From the IMG/VR virus record IMGVR_UViG_3300044982_000024, positions 1 through 26,774 of that record: 26,774 nt of DNA; one strand, given 5' to 3'. Numbering within the stretch: the stretch's first letter is position 1; every line of letters begins with the position of its first letter. The notes beneath the pieces are model-generated. The model had not been told where the DNA came from, did not search any database, and was given only the letters and a program-made list of their open reading frames with translations. The stretch is from a virus. Shown piece after piece: positions 147 to 17,325 of the stretch. The position numbers and the translations under genes are program-made.

Positions 147-232
147 GCGAAAGTGGCGGAATTGGTAGACGCACTGGATTTAGGTTCCAGCGGGTAACCC
201 CCGTAAGGGTTCGAGTCCCTTCTTTCGCACCA
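147..232 (+). tRNA. tRNA-Leu (anticodon UAG)
   Basis: Full cloverleaf can be read: a perfect 7-bp acceptor stem (GCGAAAG with CTTTCGC), a leucine-type D arm (TGGCGGAATTGGTAGACGC), a CTGGA/TCCAG anticodon stem with loop TTTAGGT (anticodon TAG), a long class-II variable arm, a GGTTCGAGTCC T arm, discriminator A and encoded CCA (230-232). It is host DNA and the presumed integration target: the integrase gene begins its stop 84 bp away and points at it. Confidence 0.97.
206..232 (+). other. Probable attL (tRNA-Leu 3' end)
   Basis: Inferred, not proven. Tyrosine integrases commonly use the 3' half of a tRNA gene as attB and restore it on integration; here the tRNA is intact and int lies directly inside, convergent with it. 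No second copy of the T-arm/acceptor sequence was seen in the rest of the window, so attR should lie beyond base 26774. Exact core boundaries cannot be set from one end. Confidence 0.5.
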
Positions 233-8439: not shown

Positions 8440-8636
8440 CTCAGGGTTGCGCGATATGCGGCCACGTCAGCATCGAGCTGCACGACATCATCGCGGTACT
8501 CGCGGATGACATCCGGGAGGCGATTCTTGCAGATGTCCCACACGGCGATCACCGGCAGCACAATGTATTTGAACGACACCCACGCCCACTTGTGAGTGCA
8601 GATGAAATTAACGAATGGTGTCTTCTTGAGGCTCAT
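8436..8636 (-). CDS. 66-residue membrane protein coupled to endolysin
   Basis: Starts MSLKKTPFVNFICTHKW at ATG 8636, which overlaps the endolysin TGA (ATGA), so it is translated by coupling. A single hydrophobic segment (WVSFKYIVLPVIAVWDI, about residues 19-35) is followed by a charged helix (RLPDVIREYRDDVVQLDADVAAY). In phages a small one-TM protein next to the endolysin is often a spanin or holin accessory; at 66 residues it is short for an inner-membrane spanin. Function inferred from place only. Confidence 0.6.
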   Translation of the reverse strand: MSLKKTPFVNFICTHKWAWVSFKYIVLPVIAVWDICKNRLPDVIREYRDDVVQLDADVAAYRATLR

Positions 8637-9082
8637 GGGGTATTCCAAAGTTTGATTTCCGCCTCGCGGCGGTTGACGAGGCCAGCGTTCACACGCAGCT
8701 GTCCGCTGACGGTTTCTTTGTTCCAACGGCGGAGCTGAGTCGGGACCGATGCGTAGTCGCCTTCATTCAACAGGCGAAGCAAGGTCGATGCGCGGAGCTT
8801 CGTTTCGCCTTCGTTGAACACGAAGGAGATCAAAGCGAATCGCTGGTTGTCGGTGAGCTTCACCTTGACCAGCCTACGTACCGCATCTTCGGCAGCGGCA
8901 GCGTCGTGTGCCAGCAGGAGTCGAGAGGTTTCTTTGGTGATCGTCAGGCCCGCATGTAACTCTGCGCCTGTGTGTCCGACACCGATGGTCCATGTGCCGT
9001 TTGTGTCGCGGTACGCGACTAGCCGCTCGCCTTCGACGGTCACGAGGAACGTCTCCAGACGAGGATCGAGTTGGTAAGCTAT
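8633..9082 (-). CDS. GH24 endolysin (T4-type lysozyme), probable ATA start
   Basis: A muramidase that cuts cell-wall glycan at lysis. The GH24 triad is visible in VEGERLVAYRD...WTIGVGHT: Glu17, Asp26 and Thr32 in the numbering used here, matching E11/D20/T26 of T4 lysozyme. The C-terminal part (LTDNQRFALISFVFNEGE...STLLRLLNEGDY...RRWNK...GLVNRREAEIKLW) is also typical. Start: no ATG, GTG or TTG lies where expected; ATA at 9082 has GGAG five bases upstream and gives a 149-residue protein of normal length. Alternative ATG 9142 gives 169 residues but lacks a ribosome site and overlaps the divergent gene at 9114; GTG at 9043 would remove most of the first helix. No signal-arrest segment. Confidence 0.85.
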   Translation of the reverse strand: MAYQLDPRLETFLVTVEGERLVAYRDTNGTWTIGVGHTGAELHAGLTITKETSRLLLAHDAAAAEDAVRRLVKVKLTDNQRFALISFVFNEGETKLRASTLLRLLNEGDYASVPTQLRRWNKETVSGQLRVNAGLVNRREAEIKLWNTP

Positions 9083-9113
9083 GGGAACTCCAAGGGGAAG
9101 TAGGGGACGGAAA

Positions 9114-9650
9114 ATGTGGCCGTTTAAGAAAACCCAGCGCATGTCCGTAGATGAGCGAGCCGGATTGGCCGCGACGTTCTTGCTTGATTCCCTGCACGGG
9201 ATCACAGCTGCAGTGGTGGGCGCGGCCATTGGGGAGGGTTGGGAGGAACAGCAGGACGACGCGTTTATGGTTACCGCGTTTGAGCTGCTCATCTTCCAGC
9301 TTCACTTGGCGGATCGGCTGACCCGCGTGAAAGCTGTGGGGAAGAACGGCGGCGCGGAGTTGATGGATGCCTTGCTGCCCATCGTCAGGGATCATGCACC
9401 GGAATTTATGCGTGCCGATTTTCAAGAGCAGTACAACATTCGGCAGCTTTTTTACGGGCAGTGCAAGGCGTTCACTCCCGCCGAAGGTCAACCGGCTTCA
9501 GGAACTCTATTTTGGGAATTTGCCAAGATAGTTCTTACAGCCACAGAACAGGCACAGGAAATAACGAAGATGCTTGGAATCACCGCGATGTGTGGGGACA
9601 TGCTCCGAGGCATCGACAATTCCTTCGAGCAACTTGGCGTCTACCGCTAG
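9114..9650 (+). CDS. Hypothetical cargo protein at the TerL-endolysin junction
   Basis: A 178-residue protein starting MWPFKKTQRMSVDERAG (ATG 9114, GGGGA seven bases upstream). Mostly helical and soluble; a Gly/Ala-rich segment (ITAAVVGAAIGEGW, about residues 30-43) and a run FELLIFQLHLADRL are the most hydrophobic parts. No recognised domain. It lies opposite to the late genes: divergent from the endolysin (31 bp apart if the ATA start is right) and convergent with terL, the two stops overlapping by four bases. One of three such antisense genes here; likely a moron expressed from its own promoter, which was not clearly found. Confidence 0.72.
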   Translation: MWPFKKTQRMSVDERAGLAATFLLDSLHGITAAVVGAAIGEGWEEQQDDAFMVTAFELLIFQLHLADRLTRVKAVGKNGGAELMDALLPIVRDHAPEFMRADFQEQYNIRQLFYGQCKAFTPAEGQPASGTLFWEFAKIVLTATEQAQEITKMLGITAMCGDMLRGIDNSFEQLGVYR

Positions 9651-11311
9651 TAATTGTCGTAGAAGTTCAGCCGAGGACTTGAGTACCCCAGGACTGCTTC
9701 CTCGAACTTGCGGTACTCCTCCTCCATTAGTTCCTCCATGCGTCGATCTTCCTCGCGCGTGACATCTCGACTGAGCCATTCGGTCCAGTAGCGGATTGCC
9801 ATTGCGAGCGCGTCCAGGCGGTCATCGTGTCGTAGCGATCCTCGATCACGTGTAATGCGCGTGAGCTGGTGAAACAACTGGAACCTCGGTTCGTCCTTCT
9901 GATCGGAACGAAGTAACGCAGCGTCCACGACAAGGCGGTGCTGATTCAACACAGGCTCCAGGGTATCGATGATCCGACGTTCCTTCTGGCCGGTGCTGCG
10001 AACTTCCTCGACGGTGCAGGGATAGATACGGCGAAGCACAGGCTCCAACAACGTGTTGAACATGCCGTCACCGAAGTTGGATTCGACGAGGATCGTCTTG
10101 ACCTTCTCGGCACGTGCAATGTGTGCGATGGTTTCCAGTGACGTCTCGGAGTACCCGCCAGGGATTCCACCGGCACGACGTAGGTACACCATGCCGCGCA
10201 ACATCTTCGTCACTGTGTAACCAGTCTCGTCACCACCTCGGCCCGAAGGGTCGATAGTCATGAGAGCGCCAGTGAACTCCTCCATGTCCTTTGAGACGTA
10301 CATAGGACGATGCAGGCGGTCGCCGGTGAATCCGACAGCGGGTATGTCGTTGACAACTTGGTCGGGCGCCGAGGCCCACACGATGCGAATGGGCGCTACT
10401 TCACGATCAATGTCGAACACGATGAGGTCAGAGAGCTTGAGCGGGTAACGCTCGCTGTCCGACAACGTAGTGTCGAGCATGAACTGAAGCATGAAGCCTG
10501 AGCGTCCATAAGACGCCTCACGTTCCAGCAAATCTTCCTCATGGAATCGAGTGGGTTCCACAGGTGACCACGGGAGACCGCGCTTCTCCTCGAATGCTTC
10601 CGCAATGAAAGGAGCTAGGCGACCAGCGTATTGCTGATAGTGCTTCTGATCTTTCGGATACCGTGCAGGCCACACACGGATTTCATAGCCGCGCTCAGGG
10701 AGTCGGTTGTAGATGGACTCCTCAGTCTGCGGCGTGCCTAGGTAGATGATCTCGGACGTCGGCAGTGGCTTAAGGATCGCGTCAAACTCTTTGATTAGTT
10801 CCGACAGCTTCTCGCGCTGTGCCACGGTGGCAGAGTTCTTCACCACCTCAACGTCGTCCGCAATGATCGTGTCAGCACGGGAGCCGGTGAGCTGACCGGT
10901 GATACCAACGGACTTCACTGAAGGCGATTGGTCGGGCAGGGCAGGGCCAACATCGAATGCGAGGTTGGAGTCACGCTGGTCACCACGGGGTTTCAAGTGT
11001 GCCAGCTCGGGAACCGTCTCGATCAATCGCTTGACGAAGATGGAGAACGCATCCGCGCGATCCTTCGACGCAGATACGACGAGAATCTTGTGCTGTGGGT
11101 TCTTCCACAGAAGCCAGCAGACATACGCGGCAGTAAGCCACGACTTACCGATACCGCGGAAAGCTTCGATCACCCGGCGACGCGGGCCGTGTTGCAGGTA
11201 CGAACCGATGTCGTACTGAACGGGCGTAGGGGCGGGGAGATTGAGGTGCTTCCATATTTGGAAGACGAAGTTTCGGAAGTCGAGGAAGGGATGTTGCTGG
11301 TCAGGAGGCAA
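9647..11311 (-). CDS. Terminase large subunit, T7 gp19-like
   Basis: The DNA-packaging motor: an ATPase that drives DNA into the prohead and a nuclease that cuts concatemers. 554 residues (T7 gp19: 586). Walker A FRGIGKS (51-57) is the same as in T7; Walker B TIIADD (148-153); coupling motif YLGTPQTEES (190-199); RNase H-like nuclease acids at Asp354 (TIDPSGRGGDETGY), about Glu410 (VESNFGDG) and Asp497/Asp500 (HDDRLDALA). The start is TTG 11311, directly after an in-frame TGA, and no ATG is available before the conserved region; no clear Shine-Dalgarno (AAGG is 12 bases away). An antisense gene separates it from its small subunit. Confidence 0.96.
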   Translation of the reverse strand: MPPDQQHPFLDFRNFVFQIWKHLNLPAPTPVQYDIGSYLQHGPRRRVIEAFRGIGKSWLTAAYVCWLLWKNPQHKILVVSASKDRADAFSIFVKRLIETVPELAHLKPRGDQRDSNLAFDVGPALPDQSPSVKSVGITGQLTGSRADTIIADDVEVVKNSATVAQREKLSELIKEFDAILKPLPTSEIIYLGTPQTEESIYNRLPERGYEIRVWPARYPKDQKHYQQYAGRLAPFIAEAFEEKRGLPWSPVEPTRFHEEDLLEREASYGRSGFMLQFMLDTTLSDSERYPLKLSDLIVFDIDREVAPIRIVWASAPDQVVNDIPAVGFTGDRLHRPMYVSKDMEEFTGALMTIDPSGRGGDETGYTVTKMLRGMVYLRRAGGIPGGYSETSLETIAHIARAEKVKTILVESNFGDGMFNTLLEPVLRRIYPCTVEEVRSTGQKERRIIDTLEPVLNQHRLVVDAALLRSDQKDEPRFQLFHQLTRITRDRGSLRHDDRLDALAMAIRYWTEWLSRDVTREEDRRMEELMEEEYRKFEEAVLGYSSPRLNFYDNY

Positions 11312-11316
11312 TCAAA

Positions 11317-11358
11317 ATGGATACCTTATGGGCGTCTTTATTAGGAACAGGGCGATGA
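11317..11358 (+). CDS. Possible 13-residue leader peptide
   Basis: ATG 11317 has a perfect AGGAGG eight bases upstream and opens MDTLWASLLGTGR, ending in ATGA that overlaps the start of the 175-residue gene at 11355. This excellent ribosome site, antisense to the first codons of terL, probably feeds translation of the downstream gene by coupling. Confidence 0.4.
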   Translation: MDTLWASLLGTGR

Positions 11359-11882
11359 CGAAGCAAACACCCGACTCGGCAGCGGGTCAAAATGGAGTAG
11401 ACAAAAGGACTTCCGGCCGCACAGGAAACAGCGGCTGGGCCTCCTCCAAGTTTTATCTCGCAGCGATCACCGCTGCGATTGGCGGCGCTACTTACTTGAT
11501 TCAGCACAGTCAAGTGCAAGGTCGTCTAGACGACGCCAATGCGCAGCTAAAGACTTGGCGCGATAACGCTGGGAAGTACGAGGCTCAGGTGTCAGCTCTC
11601 ATGGGAGAGAACGCAGCGTTGAAGTCGCAGGCCGCAGACGCTGCCACTTGCCATGCACGATTGAATCCTTATCTCCAGAACGATCCTATACTTGCGAAAA
11701 TTAGAGATATCGAGCAACGGAAGGCTCATCTCGACTCCGACATTATTCAAGGTGCTGTCACTGATGGCGGTAATTGGGAGAGGGCAGATGTTTCACAAGT
11801 CGCCTACATGCGAATTGAAAGCCAGAACTATGAGGACGAGTTAACCGGGCTTGCAAAATCCCTGCAATGCACTACGAAATAA
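11355..11882 (+). CDS. Membrane-anchored coiled-coil cargo protein between TerS and TerL
   Basis: A 175-residue protein (ATG 11355, AGGA eight bases upstream). Residues 1-30 are hydrophilic, 31-50 form a TM helix (SSKFYLAAITAAIGGATYLI), and 54-95 are a coiled coil (VQGRLDDANAQLKTWRDNAGK and on). The remainder is helical and contains two Cys (Cys99, Cys171). Topology and length resemble an inner-membrane spanin (Rz), which in T7 lies near gene 18.5, but Rz is encoded with the late genes, whereas this gene is on the opposite strand, convergent with terS (eight bases apart). Either a relocated spanin or cargo. Confidence 0.7.
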   Translation: MTKQTPDSAAGQNGVDKRTSGRTGNSGWASSKFYLAAITAAIGGATYLIQHSQVQGRLDDANAQLKTWRDNAGKYEAQVSALMGENAALKSQAADAATCHARLNPYLQNDPILAKIRDIEQRKAHLDSDIIQGAVTDGGNWERADVSQVAYMRIESQNYEDELTGLAKSLQCTTK

Positions 11883-11890
11883 CTAAACTT

Positions 11891-12124
11891 TCAATTTAGC
11901 TCTGTCGGATCGAACGGAAATTGCTGGAGCTTTCCTGCAAGAGTGCCGAGTGGACCATCTGGGGTGGGCATTGCTTCAATTCCGTTGTCCTTGACGAATT
12001 GACGTGCGACGTTCAACAGCGCAGCGAGACCCTTCTCACCGGCATCCATCTTCTCGATAGCGTCGGTGAGTTTTGTAGCGATTGCCGAATGCAGGGTCTC
12101 CAGCGATTCCTTACTTGCGGCCAT
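11891..12124 (-). CDS. Terminase small subunit, T7 gp18-like
   Basis: Recognises phage DNA and hands it to the large terminase. Seventy-seven residues (T7 gp18: 89) starting MAASKESLETLHSAI; the core KMDAGEKGLAALLNVARQFVKDNGIEA followed by GPLGTLAGKL fits the gp18-type pattern of an N-terminal helical unit and a C-terminal tail. ATG 12124 overlaps the holin stop by one base (TAATG), so the start is certain despite an upstream open frame. The holin-terS order is that of T7 genes 17.5-18. Confidence 0.82.
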   Translation of the reverse strand: MAASKESLETLHSAIATKLTDAIEKMDAGEKGLAALLNVARQFVKDNGIEAMPTPDGPLGTLAGKLQQFPFDPTELN

Positions 12125-12393
12125 TACTTCGCAAGGAACTTCTGGAACAGCCGCTCCAGGGCAGATGTGCCCAGGGATGCGATGACACACGCGAGGCCAA
12201 CAGAGGCCGTGAAGGTCAACTCAGGGAAGATCAGTGTGGACGCTGCGGCACAGAGGCCGAGTGCGCCCGAGAGGATTGCACGGGATACGGCGACACGCGC
12301 CGTGATCTTATCGCCCGATGCGAGGAGCTGACCGATGCCGATAAAAGCACCGATCAGCCCAAGCGTGGCGAGCAGCTTGGTATCTTGGTTCAT
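12124..12393 (-). CDS. Holin, LydA-like
   Basis: Makes the inner-membrane holes that time lysis. Eighty-nine residues with three hydrophobic segments (about 8-25, 38-56, 60-78), a short Lys-rich end, and the LydA-type pattern LASGDKITARVAVSRAILSG...GLACVIASLGTSALERLFQKF. It lies at the T7 gene 17.5 position, directly before terS. The ribosome site before ATG 12393 is weak, which is common for holins. Note it is encoded about 3 kb away from the endolysin. Confidence 0.82.
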   Translation of the reverse strand: MNQDTKLLATLGLIGAFIGIGQLLASGDKITARVAVSRAILSGALGLCAAASTLIFPELTFTASVGLACVIASLGTSALERLFQKFLAK

Positions 12394-12419
12394 TGAAGTT
12401 CGTTAGGTTGTCTTGATGA

Positions 12420-13085
12420 TTAGCTTTCATCCGCCGTTGCGGGTGGGTGCTTCAGAGCATCAGCAGGAGGCTCCACGCCTACTGTGTCGATCTCGTGCCT
12501 GTCGCCGTCAGCGGTCCAGTACACGTAGCCGCGATAGTCGGCCACTAGAGACCATGTGCCGATTTCGTCATTGAACTGCGGAAGCTGATGTTCCTCTGTG
12601 ATTAGCGGAGGGCGTACAGTTGTCATCGTGTCGGGCAGCGACACCCCGGCAGCGAGTCGCGGGAGATATGCACCGTCTGCTTTGTTGTAAACCGATAGGC
12701 GGCTGAAGTCAGGACCTTCGACCCATGCGCCCGCGAGTGCATCCCAAACAGTCATTTTGGGTTCCATAGCGTCGTACTGAGGCGGCACGAGGTTAGTCAA
12801 GCCTGCAGGTATTCTGTCGCCCAGCTTGAGGGTGTTCGGAACCGGCCATACGGTATTGGTGTCGTAAAGCATGATGCGACGGTAGTCGTTCACCAGTTCC
12901 CATCCACTTCCGTCATCCTTGAACCGGAACGCCCGGAACTGTTTCGCAGTTCCTTCAGTTGCGATGTCGGTTACCCACATCGGTAGGTTGTAAGTTCCAT
13001 CTTCGTTCCCGTAAAGCATCACGATGCCTAGGTATTCGCGGTCGATGTTGCTGTATTGATAGCCTAGTTTTTGTGGTTGAGGCAT
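12420..13085 (-). CDS. Tail fibre assembly/associated protein
   Basis: 221 residues, ATG 13085 with AAGGA eight bases upstream. Composition and motifs are those of a tail-associated beta protein: repeated short strands (YLGIVMLYG, FRAFRFKDDG, YRRIMLYD) and a C-terminal part YVYWTADGDRHEIDTVGV that resembles tail-fibre assembly (Tfa-type) proteins. It directly follows the tail-collar/needle gene, the usual place for a fibre chaperone. Could instead be a fibre-tip subunit. Confidence 0.55.
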   Translation of the reverse strand: MPQPQKLGYQYSNIDREYLGIVMLYGNEDGTYNLPMWVTDIATEGTAKQFRAFRFKDDGSGWELVNDYRRIMLYDTNTVWPVPNTLKLGDRIPAGLTNLVPPQYDAMEPKMTVWDALAGAWVEGPDFSRLSVYNKADGAYLPRLAAGVSLPDTMTTVRPPLITEEHQLPQFNDEIGTWSLVADYRGYVYWTADGDRHEIDTVGVEPPADALKHPPATADES

Positions 13086-13096
13086 GTAATGAATCC

Positions 13097-14581
13097 TTAG
13101 TAGGCGATGTAATGGAACATGAAAGTACCGGCCGCGATGTTCGCGCTTCCGCCTGCCGCGTCGATGGTCAAGTTATGCGTATGACCGCCTGCGTTTGAGA
13201 TGGCGATACCGTGCGTGTGATCGGGCGCTGCGTTGATAGTGATTGTGTGCTGGTGCGGGCCTGAGCCGTTCATGCCAATGTTGTGGCCGTGATTGCCCTG
13301 CCAATCAGTGTTGAAGTTGTGGGCGTGATTACCAACACCGTCAGTCCCAAGTCGATCCTGCGACAAGTAGGACGTAGCACCGCTACCGTAGTTGTAGAGG
13401 ATGTTGTTTGAGTAACCCTTCGACACCGTGCCACTTGCTTGCGTGTGCGCGTGACCGCCTTGGCCGTCAGTGCCGCCGCTGTGTGCGTGGTTACCCTGCG
13501 CATCCGTCCACGTATAGTGGGTGTGATCGCCTGCGGCCGATTCGCTAGCGCCGTGGGCATGACCACCACCTGCCGAAAGCGTTGGCGTATGCGTGTGATC
13601 GCCAACCGAACTGATCCCGCCAGTATGCGAGTGCGACAGCAGGGAACCCGCGTGGTACGTGCCGACCTTGTTGGGGTCAACCGTCGCCTTGATGACGGTG
13701 CCTTCGCCCAACGCAGGAACGTTGAACGTCGTACTGCCGTCCCCTGCGCCATAGAGCGTTCCGATTGCGGCGAACAAAGCCGCGTACTGCGTGCGTGAAT
13801 ATGCTGTGCCATCACAGAGCATCGTGCGCGGAGGTGCGGTCTTCGATGCACTCACGACGATCTGGCCGGGGAAGTAGCGGGCCGTCACGTCCAGCTTGGT
13901 AGCCAGGATCGCCAATAGGTCCGGCGCATTCATGCGGGACACTTCTGACCAGTGGAACGCCGAGAACAAACCCGGAGCAACCTCGACGTTCATCGGTGCG
14001 TTGGCGAACTGATCTGCGAGTTCTGCCGATGCAGCAGCGTGAGCTTCAGACGTCGCAGCTGCGGTCTTGGAAGAGCCAGCGTTCAACTCATGCGTCAGCG
14101 CAGTGGCAGCAGAGTTGGCAGCAGAGTTGGCAGCAGCTTGGTTGGATGCGTCCGCTTGGGACGCCAATAGTGCAGCGTTGGATTCCGAAGTAGCAGCCGA
14201 TGTCTGCGAGGCAGCGGCGGCGTCTTCATGTTCTTTCGCAGTATCAGCGAATGCAGAAGCGGAGTCGGCGGATGCAGCAGCGGCATCCTGTGACCTACTG
14301 GCGTCACTCGCGCTCATCGCTGCTGCCGAGGCGGATGCCTGTGCGCCTGCTACGGCACCAGTGGCTTGATCGGTCAGCAATGTGACGAGCTTCTGTAGAG
14401 CGGGGAAGGTGGGCAGGGAGACGATTGCTCCCGTGCCGTCTTCCATGTCCACCGTGCCGCTTGGCTTGGTGAGCAGGTCACGCAGTTGGTTCTTGTATTG
14501 ATTCCACTTGTCCACGAGTGCGGACAGGCGAGCGGCCAACGTCGCATTACTGACGTAGCCGGGGTTATCATTGGTGGCTAT
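13097..14581 (-). CDS. Tail collar / His-needle tail fibre protein, probable ATA start
   Basis: A distal tail or receptor-contact protein of about 494 residues. Order: a helical start, an Ala/Ser/Asp-rich repetitive region (about 85-180, collagen-like or coiled coil), a phage tail-collar domain (PGQIVVSASKTAPPRTMLCDGTAYSR then YGAGDGSTTFNVPAL; about 240-300), then a C-terminal needle with eleven HxH motifs (HSH, HTH, HAH, HGH, HQH) spaced about 10-20 residues. In T4 gp37 such HxH motifs bind iron along a trimeric needle. Start: ATA 14581 with GAGG five bases before it, three bases after the tail-fibre stop, giving an N-terminus of the form MATNDNPGYVSN. The only conventional choice, TTG 14539, has no ribosome site. 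Confidence 0.85.
   Translation of the reverse strand: MATNDNPGYVSNATLAARLSALVDKWNQYKNQLRDLLTKPSGTVDMEDGTGAIVSLPTFPALQKLVTLLTDQATGAVAGAQASASAAAMSASDASRSQDAAAASADSASAFADTAKEHEDAAAASQTSAATSESNAALLASQADASNQAAANSAANSAATALTHELNAGSSKTAAATSEAHAAASAELADQFANAPMNVEVAPGLFSAFHWSEVSRMNAPDLLAILATKLDVTARYFPGQIVVSASKTAPPRTMLCDGTAYSRTQYAALFAAIGTLYGAGDGSTTFNVPALGEGTVIKATVDPNKVGTYHAGSLLSHSHTGGISSVGDHTHTPTLSAGGGHAHGASESAAGDHTHYTWTDAQGNHAHSGGTDGQGGHAHTQASGTVSKGYSNNILYNYGSGATSYLSQDRLGTDGVGNHAHNFNTDWQGNHGHNIGMNGSGPHQHTITINAAPDHTHGIAISNAGGHTHNLTIDAAGGSANIAAGTFMFHYIAY
14104..14136 (+). repeat. 12-bp tandem repeat in the tail-collar gene
   Basis: TGGCAGCAGAGT is repeated about 2.75 times at 12-bp period inside the gene and encodes a repeated four-residue A/N/S motif in the Ala-rich shaft. 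Slippage here would change shaft length in steps of four residues without breaking the frame. Confidence 0.75.
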
Positions 14582-14583
14582 GG

Positions 14584-16521
14584 TTACCTCACGCCGAACA
14601 TTAATCCGGTGACGCTATGAAGGTGAGCATTGCTGCTTTGACCGCCGGGGAGGCGGATGCGGTACTGCTGCGCACCTGTAGTTGGGTTGTCGATGTAGTT
14701 CACGGCCATGCTGAGAATGCCGCCGCCGCTAATGGCGTACCAAACGCGACGAAGCTCAGTCCATGTGCCACCGTCGAGTCGATCAATGCACATATAAAAG
14801 CCAGCAACGCTACCTGCTGCGTCGTTCTCCATTAGGCATTCGAGCAACAACACGGGACGGTGGACTTCACCTAGGCGCACCGGGGCGTTCAAAGTGAATC
14901 CTGCGGTAGCACCGCCGCCACTCGCGTAGATCGCAAGGCCACCGATGTTCACCGGGGCGATTGCCTGGAACTGATCGGTCACGTTGCCAGCAGTGATGGT
15001 CCCGGCGAATCGAGCGTTACCGCCTCGGTCAACAGCGAATACCGCGTTGTTCCAGTTCTTCACACCGGCCCCGATCCACATTGGGTAGGGATCGCCAGGG
15101 TTGTTTGTCATCTCCACGCGGAACTCCTGTGGATTGATGATGTTGCCATTGCCGTCGAGCTGGAACGTGCGGAATGTACCGCCGTTCACTTCACCCATGT
15201 TGGCCGACAGTGCGGACAGCGAATTGACGCGCATCTTGTCGGCAGTGACCGAGCCGTCAACGATAAGCTGACCAGTGATGCCCACGGTGGACACTCCGCC
15301 CACAGTACCGACGACGAAGGGGTACTTCATCTGCTGCACACCGCCGTTGCTGGTGTACGTCGGAGAGACGATGCCGAATCGGTCTGCCATCACAATGAAG
15401 TTCGAGCCGGTCTTTGAATCGACACCCAGGCCGATACCTGCGATCACCGGAGTGCCGTTGATTGCACCGCCATTGATTCGCACGGTCCAGTTGGCAGACC
15501 ACTCGGGAGAACTGCTGGGATCGCCACTGCCTTTCACCAGGGCCTCAAAGCGTTGCGATAGGTTCGCAAAGGAGCCATTTGAGAATGCTTCGACCTGAGT
15601 CTGCGCAATGATCTGTGCCTGATCCTTGGTCGTGTACGTGGTCGCCAGGGTCTGATAGATCGCCTTGTTGGCGGTATCGAAGTCAGAGCGCACCGTAGTG
15701 ATCGCGGATGCACGTGCTTCATTCTCAGTCGCTACGGCCTGTTCGACCGTCGTGATGTGAGACTCGGCGACACCGATTGCAGCATTGAGCTGCGTGGCGA
15801 GCGTCGCGCGCGCTTCGCTCTCAGTTGCCAATGCCTGACGCACTTCGAGAACCTGCGCCGCCGTGTCGTCGAACTTGGCGAACAGCTCAGTGACTTGTTC
15901 GACCAGCGAGGTCTTATCATCCTGGATGATTCTGAGGGTTGTTTCAGCGAAGGCGAGGCGTCCGTCGAGTTGCCTGCGAGCGTCAAACATCTGATCGCTT
16001 CGCAGTAACTCATCCATCATGGTCTCTGCTGAGTCGTCAATATCATCGAGCTTGCTGACAAGCAGGCCCATCACGGGCGACTGCATGAGCTGATCGATGA
16101 TCTCTTGAATAGGTAGTGACGGATTGCCGCCACCAGGATTCGGCCAGCCTGAGCCGCCTCCAGGGAGGCCGCCACCGCCATAGCTGCCGAAGTCGATCTG
16201 CTCCTGCATGACAAACAGAAGTTGCCGCGAGAGCATGTTGAGTTCCGCAGCGGGAAGCATCGTGCCTTCTTGGATATGCACGAGGCTGTCATCACGCGGA
16301 GTGAAACGACGGATAGTCACGAGGATGCCGACCGGAGCCGATCCGCTCAGGCGAACCGTCGTCGGATTGATCCAGTTGAAGGATTGCTCGACAGCATCCC
16401 CCGTATCCCCTGCGAACACGCGGATGTCATCCGTGTGCAAGTAGGGGAACGGGATGGTGTAGTCGGCGACATCCTCCGCCAAGTACATGACGAAGGAGTA
16501 GCCGCGTGCCAGTTGCGCCAT
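14584..16521 (-). CDS. Tail fibre protein, T7 gp17-like N-terminus
   Basis: 645 residues. The N-terminal 1-110 match the T7 gp17 tail-attachment domain (ARGYSFVMYLAEDVADYTIPFPYL...VRLSGSAPVGILVTIRRFTP...AAELNMLSRQLLFVMQEQ). Then a Gly/Pro-rich hinge (113-136), a long helical coiled coil (about 140-330), a DUF1983-like segment as in lambda tip protein J (WTVRINGGAING...GSNFIVMADRFGIVSP, about 344-390; VDGSVTADKM near 421-430) and a variable C-terminal head. The C-terminal part unlike T7 suggests host-range exchange. ATG 16521 has GGAG five bases upstream. First gene after the antisense gene at 16639. Confidence 0.93.
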   Translation of the reverse strand: MAQLARGYSFVMYLAEDVADYTIPFPYLHTDDIRVFAGDTGDAVEQSFNWINPTTVRLSGSAPVGILVTIRRFTPRDDSLVHIQEGTMLPAAELNMLSRQLLFVMQEQIDFGSYGGGGLPGGGSGWPNPGGGNPSLPIQEIIDQLMQSPVMGLLVSKLDDIDDSAETMMDELLRSDQMFDARRQLDGRLAFAETTLRIIQDDKTSLVEQVTELFAKFDDTAAQVLEVRQALATESEARATLATQLNAAIGVAESHITTVEQAVATENEARASAITTVRSDFDTANKAIYQTLATTYTTKDQAQIIAQTQVEAFSNGSFANLSQRFEALVKGSGDPSSSPEWSANWTVRINGGAINGTPVIAGIGLGVDSKTGSNFIVMADRFGIVSPTYTSNGGVQQMKYPFVVGTVGGVSTVGITGQLIVDGSVTADKMRVNSLSALSANMGEVNGGTFRTFQLDGNGNIINPQEFRVEMTNNPGDPYPMWIGAGVKNWNNAVFAVDRGGNARFAGTITAGNVTDQFQAIAPVNIGGLAIYASGGGATAGFTLNAPVRLGEVHRPVLLLECLMENDAAGSVAGFYMCIDRLDGGTWTELRRVWYAISGGGILSMAVNYIDNPTTGAQQYRIRLPGGQSSNAHLHSVTGLMFGVR

Positions 16522-16600: not shown

Positions 16601-16638
16601 GTCGCTGAGCGCAACTTTGCTGCGCAGGATTGAAAGCA

Positions 16639-17325
16639 ATGGATAAGAGAAAACTTACCGCGCCCGATGAGCACCCGAGTGCAGGTGACGTCGCTGTGGC
16701 AGTTCTGCGAGGAGCTGTTGGGGCACTTCCTGCTGGTTCGACGCTAGTTGAATTGTTCAACTTGGTCGTGCAATCACCGTTAGATAAGCGTCGCAACGCA
16801 TGGATGGAAGTGGTTGCAGAACGCCTTGAGGAACTCGCGCATCAGGGTGTTGATGTCGAAGCACTCAAGGAAGATGAGGAGTTCATATCTGCCGTAATGA
16901 CCTCCACCATCATTGCCGTTCGCACGCACAAGGCGGAAAAACTTGAGGCTCTCCGCAACGCGGTCTTTAACGTTGTAGGGCCTCAAGCGCCGGACGAGGC
17001 AAAGCAATCAATCTTTTTCGACTTGATCGATTCGTTATCAGTGCTACACATTCAAGTACTGAAGTTCGCGAAAGCACCCTTGGTGCCAGGGCACTTTTTC
17101 ATGGGCGGTCTAATGGGTCACCTACAAAACGCATTCCCTGAGCTACGGGAACAAGACATGCTAGCTCGATACATTTGGCAGGATTTGTTCAACCGGTTGT
17201 TGGTCAACATTTCGGTGGATGGGCTACTCAGTTCCATGACAGCACAGGGACTGCGAGAGACTCGCATCACGCGACTCGGTGCTGAGTTCTTGGCTTTCAT
17301 TGAGGACCATTCGGAAACTGATTAG
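16639..17325 (+). CDS. Cargo protein of unknown function; defence candidate
   Basis: 228 residues, ATG 16639 with AGGA nine bases upstream. N-terminal part (residues 15-45) is GDVAVAVLRGAVGALPAG...ELFNLV, a Gly/Ala/Pro helical hairpin, then SPLDKRRNAW, a helical region, and RTHKAEKLEALRNAVFNV (95-112); the C-terminal half is a helical domain. I recall similar bacterial ORFs of this pattern (AxPxxG...PLxKRR...W...THxxEKLEALRNAV) mostly listed as hypothetical, often near mobile elements; this was not checked. It has its own promoter, lies antisense between T7-type genes 16 and 17, and its 3' end overlaps the gp16-like stop by 29 bases. Prophage-expressed exclusion or other defence is plausible. 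Confidence 0.75.
   Translation: MDKRKLTAPDEHPSAGDVAVAVLRGAVGALPAGSTLVELFNLVVQSPLDKRRNAWMEVVAERLEELAHQGVDVEALKEDEEFISAVMTSTIIAVRTHKAEKLEALRNAVFNVVGPQAPDEAKQSIFFDLIDSLSVLHIQVLKFAKAPLVPGHFFMGGLMGHLQNAFPELREQDMLARYIWQDLFNRLLVNISVDGLLSSMTAQGLRETRITRLGAEFLAFIEDHSETD

Follow-up and report, generated by a model that had tools for sequence, protein, structure and literature searches.

The internal AUU start of phage T4 gene 26 is inefficient and limits output. E. coli pcnB has an inefficient AUU start that caps output (cited through the reference list of PMC13009471), as may be the case for the two phage genes described here; yet pcnB and gene 26 are single genes, and neither belongs to a clade-wide pair of late genes kept off AUG. 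In S. aureus, genes with a conserved AUU or AUA start yield about 10% of what AUG would give (PMC13009471). Two of them, cvfC1 (AUU) and ccpN (AUA), resemble the phage pair in having conserved non-canonical starts, a strong Shine-Dalgarno sequence and lowered output, but they are chromosomal, carry an extended Shine-Dalgarno sequence and were proven by initiation profiling and reporters. Loss of AUG is otherwise very rare, with one AUG to AUU change in 61,358 ancestral AUG starts (PMC5622118).

The gene of initiation factor IF3, infC, also combines a Shine-Dalgarno sequence with an AUH start (i.e., AUA, AUC or AUU) in place of AUG, and in the hosts of the phage it opens with AUC-GCN-ACC. Within the host family its start could be read at 28 of 32 loci, the remaining four being unreadable by script; 27 were AUC and one AUA, and thus host ribosomes do use the AUH class. 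The two cases differ in that IF3 regulates its own gene, whereas the phage genes serve late structure and lysis; control of the latter by IF3 would be an extension of the infC case. Chromosomal genes are known to carry conserved AUH throttles. The literature searched, however, contained no phage clade in which a tail and lysis pair avoids AUG, and no description of an AUH start in an endolysin or tail gene of a phage, a weak negative as subscription papers were thinly covered.

The window and its two late genes

The window, i.e., the whole stretch of DNA that was analysed, is a 26.8-kb viral record (26,774 nucleotides) of a T7-like temperate phage. This assignment follows from the T7-type fibre and from a terminase that resembles DNA maturase B of T7-like phages (Table 1). 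A holin was recognized by domain search, while tail tubes, core proteins, RNA polymerase and an integrase-like ORF at the left end were named by inspection only. The relatives are Rhodanobacter and Dyella prophages, together with many metagenomic contigs. One 43.5-kb contig (L013/L030/L244) matches the window at 100% identity and therefore lends no independent support to the ATA starts; in L031, whose best-matching stretch is 94.6% identical, the tail gene also starts with ATA. When the tail protein was used as a query, 233 genomes of the host family gave four matches, 398 genomes of the order two and 398 of the phylum one, none of them new. An 86-base stretch near the left end (window 147-232) is 94% identical to L244:19393-19478, which lies at the opposite extremity of the twin contig, and is likely an attachment-site repeat.

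Table 1. Features around the two non-AUG starts (window coordinates; duplex energies refer to Shine-Dalgarno pairing)
Feature	Position	Strand	Evidence or remark
Endolysin, GH24 phage lysozyme, 149 aa from ATA	8633..9082	-	PF00959 2e-38; model; solved phage lysozymes
In-frame GTG, rival endolysin start	9041..9043	-	GGAG 9053-9056, nine bases upstream
Endolysin start codon ATA	9080..9082	-	ATA/ATC/GTA in 25/26 distinct clade homologues
Shine-Dalgarno GGAG of endolysin	9088..9091	-	duplex energy -5.9
Terminase large subunit (TerL)	9647..11311	-	TTG start (11311-11309); ATA in some relatives
Tail-collar (receptor-binding type) protein, 494 aa	13097..14581	-	PF07484 1.7e-17; phrog_19618 1.3e-64
Tail-collar start codon ATA	14579..14581	-	ATC/ATA/ATT in 23/23 distinct clade homologues
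Fibre stop TAA	14584-14586	-	part of spacer between GAGG and tail ATA
Shine-Dalgarno GAGG of tail-collar gene	14587..14590	-	overlaps fibre-gene end; duplex energy -7.1
Tail fibre, T7-type	14584..16521	-	PF03906 8.3e-16; canonical ATG start; directly upstream of tail-collar gene

Both genes lie on the minus strand and open as the initial annotation had described: GGAG, five bases (TTCCC), ATA and GCT at 9091-9080 for the endolysin, and GAGG, five bases (TAACC), ATA and GCC at 14590-14579 for the tail-collar gene. The tail ATA was said to follow the previous stop by three bases, a distance that needs correction, as it begins two bases beyond the fibre TAA.

The N-terminus of the endolysin can be placed with the help of structure. 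A model built from ten sequences (mean pLDDT 90.8) has the phage lysozyme fold (Z 21.7 to 9kbs_A and 18.9 to P22 lysozyme), with a helix at residues 7-17 that runs into Glu17. Residue 1 of P22 lysozyme is aligned to residue 2 of the model, while in the sequence profile residue 14 of the endolysin corresponds to residues 13-14 of lysozymes of 146 and 149 residues. Taken together, the predicted fold and the solved lysozymes set the predicted N-terminus at the ATA.

Start codons in the clade, in sister genes and in the outgroup

In the clade, composed of T7-like temperate phages of Rhodanobacteraceae, a canonical codon occurs at the two sites in none of 49 distinct sequences, so that the homologue alignment proposed in the initial annotation gave no ATG, GTG or TTG at either start. 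The tail genes begin with ATC (20), ATA (2) or ATT (1), the endolysins with ATA (16), ATC (6), GTA (3) or TTC (1), the last being the frameshifted gene of L001. An AUH codon is thus found in 23 of 23 tail genes and in 22 of 26 endolysins; the ATA described initially is a real start, but of a class wider than AUA, comprising ATC and ATT in the tail gene and ATC and GTA in the endolysin. The Shine-Dalgarno duplexes are stronger at these sites (medians -7.0 for tail and -5.9 for endolysin) than at canonical starts (-3.3), and a usable canonical rival start is present in some endolysins only. Loci were excluded if the start was located less than 30 bases from the contig end or was followed by less than 120 bases; 34 of 60 endolysin rows, with scores below 139 bits, were treated as outside the clade, and the tail row of L091 was dropped from the count, since its alignment began at residue 10. 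The tail gene of this divergent locus starts with GTG, as read by hand.

In contrast, seven other late genes at the same loci have canonical starts in all 98 distinct cases (78 ATG, 20 GTG), and the fibre gene starts with ATG in 20 of 20 distinct homologues. Judged by these counts the difference between 0/49 and 98/98 exceeds chance, with the reservation that the 49 sequences are related and are not independent draws. L193-L201 form the nearest outgroup (terminase identity about 70%); their tail gene starts with ATG in eight of eight distinct sequences, as does that of Xanthomonas phage Xp15. Since the outgroup tail genes are canonical and those of the clade are not, AUG was lost or never gained in the clade and was then kept out. 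Besides one split between G and non-G, the trees require at least five changes of the third base in the endolysin and at least three in the tail gene, none of them to G; a rough model, in which the number of changes had to be assumed, puts the chance of this at about 0.06 to 0.007. By itself the third-base argument is weak, and the contrast with the other genes carries the case. The tail tree held 25 rows (21 of the 23 clade sequences, 4 of the 8 outgroup sequences) and the endolysin tree 29 (all clade sequences but that of L001, hence 25 of 26, plus four canonical ones from the outgroup).

Coding constraint begins at codon 2. From there on the differences per codon position (1/2/3) are 0.234/0.115/0.488 for the tail gene (20 of 23 sequences, without L019, L036 and L069) and 0.320/0.193/0.484 for the endolysin (21 of 26, without L001, L087, L097, L117 and L119), i.e., they are mostly third-position and synonymous, while upstream of both starts there is no codon periodicity. 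In-frame stops lie close upstream of the tail start at -6 in L057 and -9 in L001, and of the endolysin start at -3 in L021, L093 and L094, at -9 in L119 and 12 bases upstream in L002, L033, L095, L011, L019 and L088. In ten of the 26 endolysins the next canonical codon lies as far as +34 to +88; in two of these ten, L087 and L117, the frame is open upstream with distant canonical codons. The ATA codons are taken as the true starts because the periodicity from codon 2, the near upstream stops or lack of a near canonical codon, and the lysozyme fold agree.

Among the early genes 57 rows were compared, with a canonical codon at the aligned position in 36, within eight codons in 17, and none in 4, of which two have CTG in one small gene and two belong to another. 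A small early gene (homologues of L244:9746-10072) is apparently started by CTG in L246 and L248. ARAGORN was run on eight loci, the early parts L244-L248 lying outside the scan, and found tRNAs only in L008 (five, clustered at its far end, 20.8-21.5 kb), with no initiator tRNA among them; a phage-borne initiator tRNA was thus rejected as an explanation.

Competing readings of the two codons

It is likely that translation of the two genes truly begins at a codon other than AUG, and that these codons were selected as weak starts behind strong Shine-Dalgarno sequences. The conventional starts to which the homologues might have pointed instead, TTG 14539 and ATG 9142, are not conserved among them, and both lack a ribosome site as claimed (duplex energies +0.6 and +1.9, respectively). 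The same claim fails for the GTG at 9043-9041 (codon +13), which had been overlooked and pairs at -6.4; similar GTG sites with -9.3 exist in the endolysins of L033 and L095. That the endolysin begins at this GTG, with the ATA unused or with both codons giving a long and a short form, is nevertheless improbable, as the ten endolysins with a distant canonical codon offer no such site and as codons 2-13 are constrained at the protein level (637 synonymous vs 333 non-synonymous single differences). The short form would also be deprived of most of the modelled helix that bears Glu17, while P22 lysozyme and other solved lysozymes extend to model residues 2-4. For the tail gene, the fibre stop located just upstream might suggest that the protein arises by frameshift or readthrough of the fibre gene and that the ATA is no start. 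Among the relatives the fibre stop lies mostly at -5 from the AUH codon, but at -6 in L057, -10 in L033 and -4 in L001, which covers all three frames and rules out the tail gene as a prolongation of the fibre gene; with the in-frame TAA of L057 and the conserved Shine-Dalgarno sequence of the tail gene, this reading is very hard to sustain. Least credible of all are sequencing errors or, as the initial annotation offered, two ATG to ATA lesions in a domesticated prophage. The rarity of AUA starts speaks in their favour (no change to AUA is recorded among the reconstructed AUG starts of PMC5622118), but the same codon class is found in the isolate genomes L001, L002, L003 and L008, Rhodanobacter genomes being among the carriers (strains ANJX3 and A1T4 for L008 and L002), and in many metagenomic viral contigs with intact genes and A, C or T as the third base, by which errors and lesions are ruled out.

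A different question is whether the AUH starts, being real, are merely neutral, i.e., whether initiation in the hosts is good enough for start codons to drift with no throttle involved. Here the terminase is instructive, as 17 of 25 distinct clade sequences have TTG, five ATG and three a non-canonical start. In L002 and L116 ATA stands where TTG usually sits, and the next canonical codon lies 125 codons beyond the conserved HPF motif; in L057 the start is ATA or ATT. An all-against-all ORF comparison likewise gave no canonical codon among the first 132 of the L002 gene. Judging by the alignments, some clade members have three weakly started genes, TerL included. This supports the use of AUA, yet it also suggests tolerance: with TerL non-canonical in three of 25 relatives, AUA may simply be tolerated in the hosts. 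The AUC of host infC and the GTA of some endolysins point the same way. Neutral drift, however, predicts an occasional return of AUG, of which there is none at these two sites, and a spread to other genes, against which stand the uniformly canonical starts of the seven other late genes, and it is considered rather unlikely.

A weak start as a possible throttle

What is read directly from the genomes, i.e., the two starts, their conservation, the canonical starts of sister genes and of outgroup tail genes and the AUC of host infC, can be joined in the reading of selected weak starts as follows. The strong Shine-Dalgarno sequence would recruit the ribosome to the AUH or GUA codon, where initiation would occur with fMet. 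Most start complexes would then be rejected by IF3, as at infC, and the output per mRNA would be held at a fraction of the AUG level as by a fixed throttle. Selection may exclude AUG if an excess of tail-tip protein or premature lysozyme is costly to the phage, the benefit being a tail tip at low copy and a late lysozyme. Retention of non-AUG starts across the clade thus probably serves low output of the tail-tip and lysis genes. The throttling of a lysis and a tail gene by AUA, proposed initially, fits the conserved non-AUG codons with A, C or T but no G as the third base, and its throttle step is the part we infer. The endolysin codon may drift rather than be tuned, since the GTA of three distinct endolysins is even weaker than AUH.

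A more speculative and doubtful extension is that the clade has coupled both the assembly of the tail tip and lysis to the IF3 level of the host; in members whose TerL starts with ATA, packaging would be coupled as well. All these genes would be read through the class of start codon set aside in the host for infC, and they would rise together when free IF3 drops relative to ribosomes; by such a link the phage would gauge, late in infection, the condition of the translation machinery. Resemblance of the tail starts to host infC continues after the start codon, with 14 of 15 bases identical in the best case (L088) and a median of 11 among 18 distinct tail starts, as against 131 canonical starts from 25 phage genes, for which the median is 7 and the highest value 12; this comparison was made post hoc, when the likeness had already been noticed, and is no clean test. 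The resemblance may reflect mimicry, capture, or a common preference for openings rich in GCN-ACC.

Gene finders restricted to ATG, GTG and TTG would truncate or miss both genes, with wrong N-termini of a receptor-binding protein and a lysozyme in databases as a consequence. If the throttle is true, the clade is a natural case in which the start codon, and not the strength of the Shine-Dalgarno sequence, sets the dose of late proteins, and AUH vs AUG in otherwise similar operons provides a clean comparison for IF3 discrimination outside infC.

Several minor observations concern the lysis genes and the late region. The phage may have a second lysis enzyme besides the GH24 endolysin, since the twin contig has an apparent amidase of the T7 gene 3.5 type (L244:14204-14596, by eye). 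The holin (12124-12393) has almost no Shine-Dalgarno pairing (median +0.6 in 28 distinct homologues). Two plus-strand ORFs lie inside the late region and are possibly cargo genes expressed in lysogeny: 16630-17325, with weak matches to unknown phage families, and 9081-9650, which belongs to no known family and just beyond whose start the endolysin start sits.
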